Made by a program: the position numbers and the translations under genes. A stretch of DNA of 64,000 bases from positions 1-64,000 of the forward strand of contig NZ_NHOY01000105.1 in NCBI RefSeq assembly GCF_002252755.1, in the 5' to 3' direction. Positions 36,417 to 40,533 of this stretch are shown piece by piece. Each line of letters begins with the position of its first letter. Position 1 is the stretch's first letter. The DNA comes from Halorubrum sp. Hd13 (GTDB lineage: Archaea > Halobacteriota > Halobacteria > Halobacteriales > Haloferacaceae). Under the pieces are notes generated by a model. That model saw nothing but the letters and a program-made list of their open reading frames with translations. It was not told the DNA's origin and searched no databases.

Positions 36417-36490
36417 GCCAGGGGAGCATGGGCGGTTCATGCACTCGACTTGTAATCGAGACTTCCGGGGTTCAAATCCCTGCCCTGGCT
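36417..36490 (+). tRNA. tRNA-Thr (anticodon TGT)
   Basis: 74 nt. Acceptor GCCAGGG/CCCTGGC is perfect with discriminator T. D arm GCAT-GGGCGGTTC-ATGC, anticodon stem CTCGA/TCGAG with loop CTTGTAA and anticodon TGT, T arm CGGGG-TTCAAAT-CCCTG. CCA not encoded. The DNA right after it changes character and holds a decayed transposase, so this tRNA probably marks the left end of an integrated island. A direct repeat of its 3' end on the right was not found by eye. Confidence 0.95.
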
Positions 36491-36674
36491 TGCTCGCTCT
36501 TCCGTAAACTGGTGTTACCAGAAAAATTAGTGCCTCTATTCGGGCAGAATCGGATATACAAACGAACCGCCCCGCTTTCGGCCAGAGGCCAGCGGAACTC
36601 GCGGAACATGGCGTAATAGAATTTCGGCCCGAGAGGCTCGACGCTATTATCGAGCGGCGTCTCAAGAAGATCTG

Positions 36675-37453
36675 GTGAGAACGCTCTTTTTCACCTGCGG
36701 CGCAGAGAGCCTCCACGCCCGCGACGGCTCCGACCGTATCTGGTGTGGCCGCTGTGACTGGAAAGCCACGTCCACCCGCCTGACGATCATTCTACGATTC
36801 GGAACTCATCCTCGGTGAGCTCCTCAACGCCTTCATTCTCCACGCTAACACACTGCTAAACATAACCCGGGCGGCCCTCCTCTCACCGTGTTACACGACA
36901 CTTCACGACCAACTCAGCGAGTTCGAAACGCGTTCTGTCGGGGATTTCCGACTGTCTGGGAAATGCGCTCCCAGACAGTCGATGGGCCAACACAGGTCAA
37001 AGAAACACACCAGGTGTGTGCCGGATTTGAATACAAAGACCAGCCGCGGTCGAGTCCATGCCGCGGCGGGTCGTCAGAGGGCGGACGCACCCGCTGGACA
37101 GAGGATCAGGGAGAGGACTGACGCTCGTCGCGGCAGGCCGCGACGTGCTTCGGGTGGTGTCAGCTCAGGAGGGAAGCGACCACGAGGGCGATCTCGGGCC
37201 AGTTATTGAGGAGGTCGACGACTTCTCTCAACTGCTGGGAGAGGTCCGGACCGACGGACTGCCGGCCTCCCGAGGCATGGAGCATGAAGTCTGCGCCAAC
37301 GCCGTCGCGCCCGATCACTTCGTGACCGGGCGGATCGACCGGCTGGTCGAGGAGTCGGTCGCGACGGGCGCGTGCGACACCCGCGAAGCGGCCCGCGAGG
37401 CATCGGGTGGGGCGTCACGTCGGGTCGGCCCGCGACACCGTGCCTGCTCTTGA
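36675..37453 (+). pseudogene. Decayed transposase (zinc-ribbon/DDE, IS1595-like)
   Basis: Transposase-like sequence in three frames. Frame 1 from 36675 has FFTCGAESLHARDGSDRIWC then GRCDWKAT, the N-terminal zinc ribbon. A shifted frame continues FYDSELILGELLNAFILHAN, then TTLHDQLSEFETR. A third segment, VDGPTQVKETHQVCAGFEYK, is the DDE start with the usual GPxxVxET region, followed after another shift by LTLVAAGRDVLRVVSAQEGS and GPVIEEVDDFSQLLGEV. Stops and at least two frameshifts show it is dead. The whole 36491-37661 stretch has no intact gene. Family name is by pattern only. Confidence 0.6.
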
Positions 37454-37661
37454 CACTTGTATCACGCCGTGTACACTGAAGACGTCGTGAACGGTGTAGC
37501 TCCCGAAACATGATACTGGCCCAACAAAAATCCGTAGACACCCTCATCTGACGGGGAGACCGTGGGGGACGGTCGGGTGGGGGCACCGACCGAACAGTCG
37601 CTCGGTTCGTCCCGACCGGCGCCCGACCGAGCCCGAACCAGCGATCCGTCGATACCTGACA

Positions 37662-39416
37662 ATGGCAACACCGTCAGATCACGACCACGAACACGACAAC
37701 GATGGCACAGGCCGTTGGGACTTCCCGCCGCTCTACCCGTCCCCCGTTGAGGAACCGCCAGTTGGGGAAATCCCGGACGAGGGGCTCCCCGAGGATCCAA
37801 CGGATCACGAGGCGTTCATGGACTGGGTCGAGAGCCAGTGTGACACGACGAACGATAAACAACCCGTCGAACAGTACGACGGGACGCTGGGCGTCTCGAA
37901 GTCGTTCGTCGACAACCACGAGTCACCCGTCGGCCTCATCCAATGGAACGACGACCTTGACCAGCGGTATTCGGACCCCGGCAGGTTCGCGGGCGATCGT
38001 TGGTGCACCGGGACGCTGGTCGCCGACGATCTGTTTCTGACGGCGGGGCACTGTTTCGACTCCGCCCCGGGCGTGCCGGTGAAAGGTGGCCAGCGGATCC
38101 GTCCCCACGAAATCGCGACGAACATGCACGTCGACTTCAATTACCAAGTCGACCCGTCGGGGAACCTCAGGCAGGAACAGCAGTTCGACATCGTCGAGCT
38201 CGTCGAACGCGACAGGGGCGGACTCGACTACGCAGTGGTCAGGCTCTCGGGGACGCCCGGCAACCGGTTCGGGTCGGCGACGCTTGCTACCTCGCCCGTC
38301 CAGCAGGGCGATTCCCTCTGCATTATCCAGCATCCAAGGGGTCGCCCGAAGAAGATCGAAGCCGGGACGGCGACGCACGTCCATACGAGTTCGACCTCGG
38401 GACAGCTTGGGGAGGACTACTTCGGGTACGGTGACATCGACACGCTCCGCGGCAGTTCCGGGTCGGGGGTCCTCCGGGAATCCGACGGCGCCATCGTCGG
38501 CGTCCACACCAACGGCGGCTGCCGCGCCGGACGCGGGGGTCACAACCACGGAGTGAAGATCGGTCCGATTCTCAACGAGTCGGACGTTCTTACCGCGTTC
38601 TCATTGAAGAACCCGATCGAGGGGAAGATTCCCCTCAGCGAAAAGAACTTCCCATCCGAGAAGATGAAATTCACCGACGAGGGGGTCGGCGGGAACAAAT
38701 TCCTCAACGATCCGCCGGTAGGGACCGGCGGCCGAGGGACGGTCAAACACGTCGACGACCGAAAGGCGACCGGGCTGGACAAACCGCCCGGCGACCCCGC
38801 CGGCCAAGGTGGGGGTGTCGGTGGCGACGTTCCCGGGGCTGGTGGCGGTCTTGAGTACACCCCAACGCGACCGTACATCCCAGAAAAAAACAAGTTCACC
38901 GACGAACCGGGCGGTACGCTCCCATTCCGCGACACGCCGATCGGCGGCGGCGACGGCGGCACCTCCCCGTACATCGACCGTCGAAAGGCGACCGGGCTAG
39001 ACAAGCAGTTCGACGACATGGGGCTGGGACAGATGCCGTTCAGCCCGATTCAGCAACAGGGGCAGAGGCAACCGCAGGGATACGGATACGGCTTCGGGCA
39101 CGCCGGAGGGAGCAAAGCCGGCGGCGGAGAGCGTCCGTTCGTCCTCCAGACGCCACATCACGTGGGCCGAGGTTCCGGCGCCGACCTGCAGGGGACGGGA
39201 CAGGGCCAGGGTCAGGGTCAACCCCACGGCCACGGCGGGACCGACCGGACGGCTGGCGGCGGAGGTGGGGAGCTGCAGTCAACCTACGAACAGCTCCTGA
39301 GCGACATGCAGCAGTTTCTCCAGCAACAACAGACGCAACTGCAGGCCATCAACGACCAGTACCGTCAGTTGGCCGCCGAGTACCAGCAATTCCTCTCGCA
39401 GGGGTCCCAGCGGTGA
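37662..39416 (+). CDS. Trypsin-like serine protease with repeated Thr/Asp/Lys-rich C-terminal motifs; candidate graspetide-type substrate
   Basis: 584 residues, no signal peptide (MATPSDHDHEHDNDG...). Residues 85-310 are an S1-type protease: WCTGTLVADDLFLTAGHCF gives H130, GLDYAVVRL gives D189, RGSSGSGVL gives S266, so the triad is intact. Two near-identical repeats follow: 332-374 and 407-448, sharing EK-x-KFTDE, (N/R)D-x-P(V/I)G and RKATGLDK. Gly-rich linkers come next (GTGQGQGQGQPHGHGG), then a Gln-rich helix to the end (YEQLLSDMQQFLQQQQTQLQ). A GTG-started ATP-grasp ligase gene follows by 124 nt. I infer the repeats are cross-linking sites; this is not shown by sequence. Promoter not clear; AT-rich ACAAAAATCC near 37525. 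Confidence 0.8.
   Translation: MATPSDHDHEHDNDGTGRWDFPPLYPSPVEEPPVGEIPDEGLPEDPTDHEAFMDWVESQCDTTNDKQPVEQYDGTLGVSKSFVDNHESPVGLIQWNDDLDQRYSDPGRFAGDRWCTGTLVADDLFLTAGHCFDSAPGVPVKGGQRIRPHEIATNMHVDFNYQVDPSGNLRQEQQFDIVELVERDRGGLDYAVVRLSGTPGNRFGSATLATSPVQQGDSLCIIQHPRGRPKKIEAGTATHVHTSSTSGQLGEDYFGYGDIDTLRGSSGSGVLRESDGAIVGVHTNGGCRAGRGGHNHGVKIGPILNESDVLTAFSLKNPIEGKIPLSEKNFPSEKMKFTDEGVGGNKFLNDPPVGTGGRGTVKHVDDRKATGLDKPPGDPAGQGGGVGGDVPGAGGGLEYTPTRPYIPEKNKFTDEPGGTLPFRDTPIGGGDGGTSPYIDRRKATGLDKQFDDMGLGQMPFSPIQQQGQRQPQGYGYGFGHAGGSKAGGGERPFVLQTPHHVGRGSGADLQGTGQGQGQGQPHGHGGTDRTAGGGGGELQSTYEQLLSDMQQFLQQQQTQLQAINDQYRQLAAEYQQFLSQGSQR
38655..38783 (+). repeat. Protease C-terminal repeat unit 1
   Basis: Encodes residues 332-374 (SEKMKFTDEGVGG...RKATGLDK). 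Compared with unit 2, about half of positions are identical, concentrated in KFTDE and RKATGLDK. Confidence 0.8.
38880..39005 (+). repeat. Protease C-terminal repeat unit 2
   Basis: Encodes residues 407-448 (PEKNKFTDEPGG...RKATGLDK). It is separated from unit 1 by a Gly-rich linker of about 30 residues. Confidence 0.8.
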
Positions 39417-39540: not shown

Positions 39541-40533
39541 GTGATCCTGGTCGTCTCCGAGGCCGACGATGACCACGCGCGGGCGGTCCTGGACCGGCTC
39601 GAGCGCCGCGGCGTCGCCGCCAGGCTGCTGGACACGTCGGCGTTCCCGCAGCGACTGTCCCTGTCGATGACGTACGCCCGGACGGACCCGGACGGGACCG
39701 GGGCCGACGGCGATGACGAGCCGGCGCTGCACGCCCGACTGGGCGACCTCGAGTTGGCCGACTGTGGCGCGGTCTGGTGGCGCCGTCCCCAACCGTTCGA
39801 CCTGTCGCCGGAACTCACTGGCAACGTCGACCGGTCGTTCGCCTACCGGGAGTGTCAGGCCGCGATCGGCGGCCTCTGGCGGACGCTCGACGCGGAATGG
39901 ATGAACCACCCGACCCACGACGAGGAGGCCGCCCGCAAGCCCTACCAGCTACGGGTCGCCCAGCAGATCGGGTTCGAAATTCCCGAGACCTGCATCACCA
40001 ACGACCCGGCCCGGGCTCAGGCGTTCGTCGACGCACACGGCGCCTCGAAGACCATGTACAAGGCGTTCACCGGAACCGAAGCCGCCTGGCGGGAGACACG
40101 CGTCCTCCGGGACGGCGAGACGGATGTCATCGCCGCCGTGCGGCACGCGCCGGTCATCTTCCAGGAGTACGTCCCTGCGGGCGTCGACCTCCGGATCACG
40201 GTCGTTGACGGCGAGGTGTTTCCGGCGGAGATCCACTCTCAGGAGACGGCCTACCCCGTCGACTACCGCATGAACGTCGATCGGGCCCGGGTCGAACCCG
40301 CCGACCTGCCCGACGACATCCGCGACCGGCTCCGGGAGTACGTCGACCGGCTGGGGCTGGTGTACGGGGCGATCGACATGCGACGGCGACCGGACGGGCA
40401 GCACGTCTTCCTCGAGATCAACCCGTCGGGACAGTGGCTGTTCATGGAGGAGCGTACCGGTCAGCCCATCACCGAGACTGTCGCCCGGGTCCTCGCGGAG
40501 GCAGACGCGCAGACACCGCCCGCCCGCCACTGA
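39541..40533 (+). CDS. ATP-grasp peptide ligase of the MvdC/MvdD (microviridin/graspetide) type
   Basis: 330 residues from a GTG at 39541 with CGGAGG 9-14 nt ahead. The order matches ATP-grasp ribosomal peptide maturases: a pre-ATP-grasp domain (ILVVSEADDDHARAVLDRLE), the WWRRPQPFDL segment, EEAARKPYQLRVAQQIGFEIP, the hinge FQEYVPAGVDLRITVVDGEV (E209) and the metal site FLEINPSGQW (E292, N294). Such enzymes join Thr/Ser/Lys side chains to Asp/Glu carboxylates of a partner peptide using ATP. RimK or other ATP-grasp ligases are less likely given the WWRRP and SGQW motifs. It is directly downstream of the repeat-bearing protease, the obvious candidate substrate. Confidence 0.82.
   Translation: MILVVSEADDDHARAVLDRLERRGVAARLLDTSAFPQRLSLSMTYARTDPDGTGADGDDEPALHARLGDLELADCGAVWWRRPQPFDLSPELTGNVDRSFAYRECQAAIGGLWRTLDAEWMNHPTHDEEAARKPYQLRVAQQIGFEIPETCITNDPARAQAFVDAHGASKTMYKAFTGTEAAWRETRVLRDGETDVIAAVRHAPVIFQEYVPAGVDLRITVVDGEVFPAEIHSQETAYPVDYRMNVDRARVEPADLPDDIRDRLREYVDRLGLVYGAIDMRRRPDGQHVFLEINPSGQWLFMEERTGQPITETVARVLAEADAQTPPARH

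Follow-up and report, generated by a model that had tools for sequence, protein, structure and literature searches.

What does a haloarchaeal serine protease with a long, repeat-bearing tail do directly upstream of a ligase of the type that makes graspetides, the class defined by side-chain lactone or lactam cross-links? The question is raised by a gene pair in the 64,000-nucleotide stretch of Halorubrum sp. Hd13 DNA analysed here (the window). The reading we prefer, at a probability of roughly 0.65, is that the protease itself is the precursor and that its tail would be cross-linked by the adjacent ATP-grasp enzyme; gene order, domain families, shared motifs and the selective conservation of homologous tails are the direct observations at its base. 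The genes and the domain concerned are as follows.

37662..39416, + strand: trypsin/V8-like serine protease with a long C-terminal tail, 584 aa, the proposed precursor (Pfam PF13365, 3e-18; PF00089, 1.7e-10)
38004..38504, + strand: trypsin-like peptidase domain, residues 115-281 (Pfam envelope)
39541..40533, + strand: ATP-grasp graspetide synthetase with a GTG start (PF21068 above cut-off; TIGR04187, 263 bits; relatives in the PDB)

The protease carries the trypsin-like peptidase signature together with an intact catalytic triad (H130, D189 and S266, read from AGH, GLDYAV and GSSGSG), as is typical of V8/glutamyl endopeptidase-type enzymes. The nearest solved structure to its domain is the glutamyl endopeptidase 1p3c (E 1e-6), which we take to be of the V8/S1B type, and the GVH region is aligned between the two. 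Glu-cleaving endopeptidases have a His in the S1 site, and from the alignment at GVH the window protease may be predicted to cleave after Glu as well. Its likeness to the glutamyl endopeptidases lies in the protease domain, to which it adds a long tail with putative stapling motifs. The N-terminus of the protein is MATPSDHDHEHD, followed by the protease domain, with no N-terminal leader of the Phhx(1,2)h type. Four relatives of the protease domain (L026, L039, L040 and L041) are devoid of the tail; one of them, L039, is cyanobacterial and bears the annotation penicillin-insensitive murein endopeptidase.

The ligase gene lies 124 nt downstream of the protease gene on the same strand. Its TIGR04187 match is below the cut-off of 350 bits, as are its matches to the MvdC and MvdD models, these NCBIfam cut-offs being naming thresholds and no defining property of graspetide synthetases. 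Solved relatives include 5ig9 and 5ig8 (presumably MdnB and MdnC, the assignment of the two names to the two entries being our assumption), 7mgv (CdnC), 7m4s (AMdnB) and 7drm. Judged by these matches, the ligase is a graspetide-type ATP-grasp of the MdnB/MdnC/CdnC (MvdC/MvdD-type) family, and the proposed precursor stands beside it, as in graspetide loci. The microviridin, chryseoviridin and AMdnA synthetases (5ig9, 5ig8, 7mgv, 7m4s) are its closest solved relatives; unlike the window pair, those systems act on small precursors dedicated to them, whose leader at the N-terminus is of the PFFARFL type (Makarova et al. 2022, PMC8939145). A search of the own genome with the ligase returned itself as the single match, with no truncated second ATP-grasp. 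An HVO_A0261-type regulator adjoins the gene pair and, like the 70% GC of the window, points to a haloarchaeal host. A tRNA-Thr gene at 36417-36490 is followed by a stretch (36500-39000) of about 64% GC that holds the protease, compared with 70% for the window, and may mark an integration site; this combination suggests that the gene pair may have been gained horizontally.

Proteases beside graspetide ligases are already in print (Makarova et al. 2022; Carter et al. 2026). In branches 7 and 8 of the former survey, ATP-grasps are associated with peptidases belonging to a number of unrelated families, and no precursor had been identified (Makarova et al. 2022, PMC8939145); the window pair resembles them in being a peptidase-linked ATP-grasp of this kind; a truncated inactive second ATP-grasp is typical of branch 8 and a YscW homologue is often found in branch 7, but neither was seen at the window locus. 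Similarly, graspetide group 32 has diverse neighbouring proteases and group 9 a serine proteinase, although a fusion of protease and precursor, as proposed for the window locus, is unmentioned for both groups in the text searched of Carter et al. 2026 (PMC13097080). In the passages, titles and abstracts of the graspetide literature that were searched, a protease acting as the precursor is not mentioned, and an earlier report may exist.

The protease tail is C-terminal and Gly-rich, comprising 274 residues from about residue 311, and the residues V/I/L/M/F/W/C make up 18% of it versus 25% of residues 1-310. The following features were delimited within it.

38658..38783, + strand: tail unit 1, EKMKFTDE...NDPPVG...RKATGLDK, 42 aa (alignment; in frame in ORF 37662-39416)
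38667..38681, + strand: KFTDE motif 1, residues 336-340, with a predicted Lys-Glu(i+4) lactam (by analogy with corallotide KxxxD)
38760..38783, + strand: RKATGLDK motif 1, with a possible Thr/Lys-Asp linkage (alignment)
38784..38882, + strand: Gly-rich linker separating the units, 33 aa with 11 Gly (read from the translation)
38883..39005, + strand: tail unit 2, EKNKFTDE...RDTPIG...RKATGLDK, 41 aa (alignment; in frame in ORF 37662-39416)
38892..38906, + strand: KFTDE motif 2, residues 411-415
38982..39005, + strand: RKATGLDK motif 2 (alignment)

The two repeats, first pointed out by a sequence-only reading, are not a product of chance, as their local alignment scores 107 compared with a maximum of 56 among 2000 shuffles. 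Their description as near-identical units of 42-43 residues applies to the end blocks (15 of 16 residues shared; 7/8 in EKxKFTDE and 8/8 in RKATGLDK) but not to the middle (9/25) or to the whole (24/41 aligned residues), and the lengths are 42 and 41. Both units have the EK-x-KFTDE start, the RKATGLDK end and a D-x-P(V/I)G centre, as had been reported, and of the Gly-rich linkers said to join them one lies between the units, with a further Gly-rich stretch after unit 2. Among the 15 end-block residues that are identical, six are encoded by different, synonymous codons in the two units (four in EKxKFTDE, two in RKATGLDK), and therefore the repeats are not a fresh DNA duplication; these codon changes suggest that the end blocks are kept by selection on the protein. 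Both units repeat nucleophilic (Thr/Ser/Lys) and acidic (Asp/Glu) residues, as expected of a graspetide precursor.

The closest ATP-grasps found, 51% identical to the window ligase, are located in Burkholderia stagnalis YJ-2 plas1 (L024) and Paraburkholderia antibiotica (L030), and the gene directly upstream of each encodes an M43 zinc metalloprotease (PF05572). Blastp detects no resemblance between the M43 proteases and the protease domain of the window protein (lowest E 1.3), whereas their tails are related to the window tail (blastp E 1e-7 for the pair). Each M43 tail contains KFIDEP, then APFVLSTPHH (RPFVLQTPHH in the window), and then a segment that aligns with the Gln-rich helix at the end of the window protein; KF(T/I)DE is thus the core motif common to the window and Burkholderiales tails, and RKATGLDK is absent from both of the latter. 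At the five other loci examined, M43 relatives with 56-59% identity extend no more than about 60 residues past the protease domain and are without this tail. Related tails beside the closest ligases, unrelated protease domains and tail-less M43 relatives together indicate that the tail travels with the ligase while the protease differs. By these comparisons, a related type of tail is attached to unrelated proteases in a haloarchaeon and in distant soil bacteria, the statistically linked tails numbering three, two of which (those of the M43 proteins) are close relatives.

A protein of 245 aa from genome G1186 (L086:5035-5772, - strand) has a small N-terminal, non-protease domain and is encoded upstream of an ATP-grasp 46% identical to the window ligase. 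It contains FVDTHPG/WWDPP/FDKPP (FDxPP-type) repeats, the sequence GAAPFSLAAAR and an Ala-rich C-terminal segment. Its plan is like that of the window tail by eye only: the tail profile does not retrieve the protein at E<=1, and blastp aligns nothing in it with the window tail, so that it is left out of the case for homology.

Conservation within the tail was assessed on the single M43 pair rather than on the window tail, in a core region delimited after the alignment had been inspected. Identity within this pair is 85% over the protease domain and 66% over the tail. In the core region, all 16 Asp/Glu/Lys residues are kept versus 9 of 33 hydrophobic ones (p 8e-7), and half of the conserved Asp/Glu/Lys codons (8/16) carry synonymous changes; in the protease domain, taken as a control, the corresponding figures are 27/28 and 95/110 (p 0.19). 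The claim that conservation falls on Thr, Asp, Glu and Lys rather than on hydrophobic residues is thereby borne out in the M43 tails for the charged residues and only in part for Thr (9/14 kept), and no conserved hydrophobic core is found in these homologous tails. The accompanying expectation that an alignment of homologous tails would have conserved Thr, Asp and Lys positions and unconserved linkers was likewise realised for Asp and Lys but for Thr only partly and not for the linker, which is kept at 13 of 24 positions versus 53 of 92 in the core region, so the contrast is one of residue type and not of region. The suggested likeness to multi-core RiPP precursors gains from the graspetide ligase next door and from the selective retention of Asp/Glu/Lys, and loses from the absence of RKATGLDK in homologues. 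Because the tails are related while the protease domains are unrelated, and Asp/Glu/Lys are selectively conserved, it is likely that the protease is the precursor.

Beyond the repeats, two C-terminal features may account for recognition by the ligase.

39135..39161, + strand: PFVLQTPHH, residues 492-500, proposed recognition motif (follower), 8/9 identical to PFVLSTPHH of both M43 tails
39267..39404, + strand: C-terminal Gln-rich helix, residues 536-581 (pLDDT mostly >90 in two models), aligning with the C-terminal segment of each M43 tail

In a shuffle control for the 8/9 identity of PFVL[QS]TPHH (100 shuffles), the best 9-mer reached 7/9 and occurred once. The motif lies C-terminal to the core motifs and does not fit the strict Phhx(1,2)h leader pattern, an N-terminal leader of this type being common in graspetide precursors and present in about half of them (Makarova et al. 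2022, PMC8939145). Conventional precursors at more distant ATP-grasps also have PF-type motifs at the N-terminus (MRPFLLQFA in L046, QPFVLKS in L084 and PVPFF in L076-L080). We infer that PFVLQTPHH acts as a leader or follower; with a recognition sequence C-terminal to the cores, the order would probably be the reverse of the usual one. A precedent is fuscimiditide, which is still modified when its leader is moved to the C-terminus (Johnson et al. 2026, PMC13003496): there, too, a recognition sequence after the core directs the ligase, as proposed for the window tail, but in an engineered construct, whereas the C-terminal position in the window would be natural.

Conventional architectures were also seen. 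In genome G249, of the window's genus, a 73-aa small precursor (L046:3610-3831, + strand) has the leader-like start noted above and a core that includes ...TKKKNYEKSDENRDD, and directly precedes an ATP-grasp 32-36% identical to the window ligase; an archaeon thus has a graspetide locus resembling those of the microviridins. In L045, L081 and L083, the ATP-grasp is preceded by conventional precursors that carry about four repeats of the LLTKT...EADDD type, and in the last two a predicted membrane protein follows.

In the proposed mechanism, the ATP-grasp would bind the C-terminal part of the protease, with PFVLQTPHH and the Gln-rich helix as follower, and would cross-link acidic and nucleophilic side chains of the tail upstream of it. 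The likeliest links are predicted to be Lys-Glu(i+4) lactams in both KFTDE motifs, by analogy with corallotide from Corallococcus, for which the repeats are large and the TIGR04187 ligase CorB forms a Lys-Asp macrolactam in KxxxD (Carter et al. 2026, PMC13097080). The precursor CorA resembles the window tail in being large, with repeated Lys...acid motifs, and has several small rings of the sort proposed for the window, although the spacing differs (KIVAD, i.e. KxxxD, versus K-D(i+3) and K-E(i+4) in KFTDE); the corallotide cluster has a hydroxylase and a beta-lactamase, and the sections consulted (Carter et al. 2026, PMC13097080) describe no protease-fused precursor. Thr- or Lys-Asp links in RKATGLDK would be less certain than the KFTDE lactams. 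The product would be a V8-like protease whose Gly-rich tail bears at least one small stapled ring in each unit. As to its role, we favour the idea that stapling would hide the Glu and Asp residues of the tail from the acid-specific protease, the tail being a built-in substrate-mimic inhibitor or an appendage protected until it is cut off. This idea was raised because the graspetides characterised as of 2022 were protease inhibitors (Makarova et al. 2022, PMC8939145). Any given role is, however, held with less confidence than the precursor reading itself, and a specific inhibitor role is weakened by the M43 partners and the non-protease N-terminal domain among relatives.

Three other explanations deserve comparison. 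Previous authors guessed that the branch peptidases cut other proteins (Makarova et al. 2022, PMC8939145) and suggested neighbouring proteases as maturation or resistance factors (Carter et al. 2026, PMC13097080), and small separate precursors do exist at other ATP-grasp loci; by extension, the window protease may act solely in maturation or self-resistance, the true precursor being a small separate peptide that has escaped recognition and the tail an unmodified disordered linker. We regard this as improbable in view of the likeness between the tails that two unrelated proteases carry next to the closest ATP-grasps and of the selective conservation of Asp/Glu/Lys in the M43 tails, and inspection by eye of the listed ORFs around the gene pair revealed no small precursor bearing a PF motif at its N-terminus. 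Least probable of all, to the point of being very doubtful, is an ordinary folded or ligand-binding repeat domain unconnected with the ligase. The recurrence of both end blocks and of the D-x-P(V/I)G centre in two units would suit such a domain, but the hydrophobic content of the tail is low, there is no Pfam match at or above cut-off, and neither of two structure models assigned secondary structure to the two units, the C-terminal helix being the only long confident element. Both models are shallow and weak, since one used a single sequence and gave the genuine protease domain a pLDDT <50 and the other used two sequences only; within this limit, the compact repeat domain that would have spoken against the sequence-only reading is absent from both, and a folded repeat domain was rejected as a candidate.

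More serious, if still rather unlikely, is the possibility that the tail is indeed modified, its role being that of a covalently braced module for anchoring, secretion or stability and not that of an inhibitor or released peptide. The tails occur on an S1 protease, on M43 proteases and possibly on a non-protease domain, so that the N-terminal domain looks interchangeable; moreover, no signal peptide is evident by eye on the window protease or the M43 proteins, and a hydrophobic, signal-like N-terminus is present in three tail-less relatives of the window protease, L026, L040 and L041. No anchor or sorting motif was recognised, however, and the characterised graspetides speak for inhibition, though corallotide proved inactive in the assay that its authors used (Carter et al. 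2026, PMC13097080).

The distribution of the pair appears to be narrow. A lineage-wide archaeal family was considered and rejected, as the protease with the tail was found in one of 391 genomes of the class, its own; three others match the protease weakly and over parts (E 2.4e-4 to 1e-3). ATP-grasp relatives at E<=1e-10 are present in 16 of 382 class genomes, with 4.9e-42 as the next best value. As judged from these searches, the protease-ligase pair is rare in the class. Two viral scans found no relative, and in a plasmid scan the tail query matched one record, that of Burkholderia, and the L086 protein none. Searches for further members in Burkholderiales and Pseudomonadota gave 6/300 for the order (E<=1e-30), 6/398 for the phylum (1e-40), 6/117 for the genus (1e-60), 2/249 for the family (1e-70) and 1/3 for the genus of G1186, with genome G391 counted in the order, phylum, genus and family searches; among these further members only G1186 is close, its tail being similar by eye only. 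Substrates acting in trans were sought in the own genome, G391, G1186 and the Burkholderia record, and none was found beyond the known genes.

The ATP-grasp tree (40 rows, with L028, L054 and L055 left out for want of an ORF) sets 20 other rows apart (97/96) from those of the window, L024, L030, L086, L062 and L063, and is by itself no proof that these six form a clade. The ATP-grasps of L062 and L063 (genomes G574 and G665) lie near that of the window in the tree, with no recognisable precursor or protease nearby. A separate haloarchaeal group of 12 tree rows (L047-L053 and L056-L060) has no recognisable small precursor upstream. In genome G544, a PQQ/BamB-like propeller protein (below the Pfam cut-off; L087:4434-6398, - strand) has a Lys/Glu-rich tail (KEIKEVKDIKEFKFEHKE...), and its gene is followed by those for a protein like the front half of an ATP-grasp and for a full ATP-grasp, a layout resembling branch 8; the propeller protein is another possible enzyme-plus-tail substrate.

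If the protease is the precursor, the puzzle of the peptidase-linked ATP-grasp branches becomes testable with two genes, and a tail that serves as precursor may explain why those branches were left without one (Makarova et al. 2022). More tentatively, at somewhat less than even odds, protein-fused graspetides would exist in nature as a class of their own: unrelated proteases would be the substrates of ATP-grasps and carry stapled C-terminal units, with a natural leader placed C-terminal to these. Such proteases would supply the precursors that the peptidase-associated branches lack, and the tail would regulate or protect the protease that carries it, or be released by it. Such a leader would be the natural counterpart of the artificial construct of Johnson et al. 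2026, and the window protein would be a natural example of an enzyme decorated with stapled rings.
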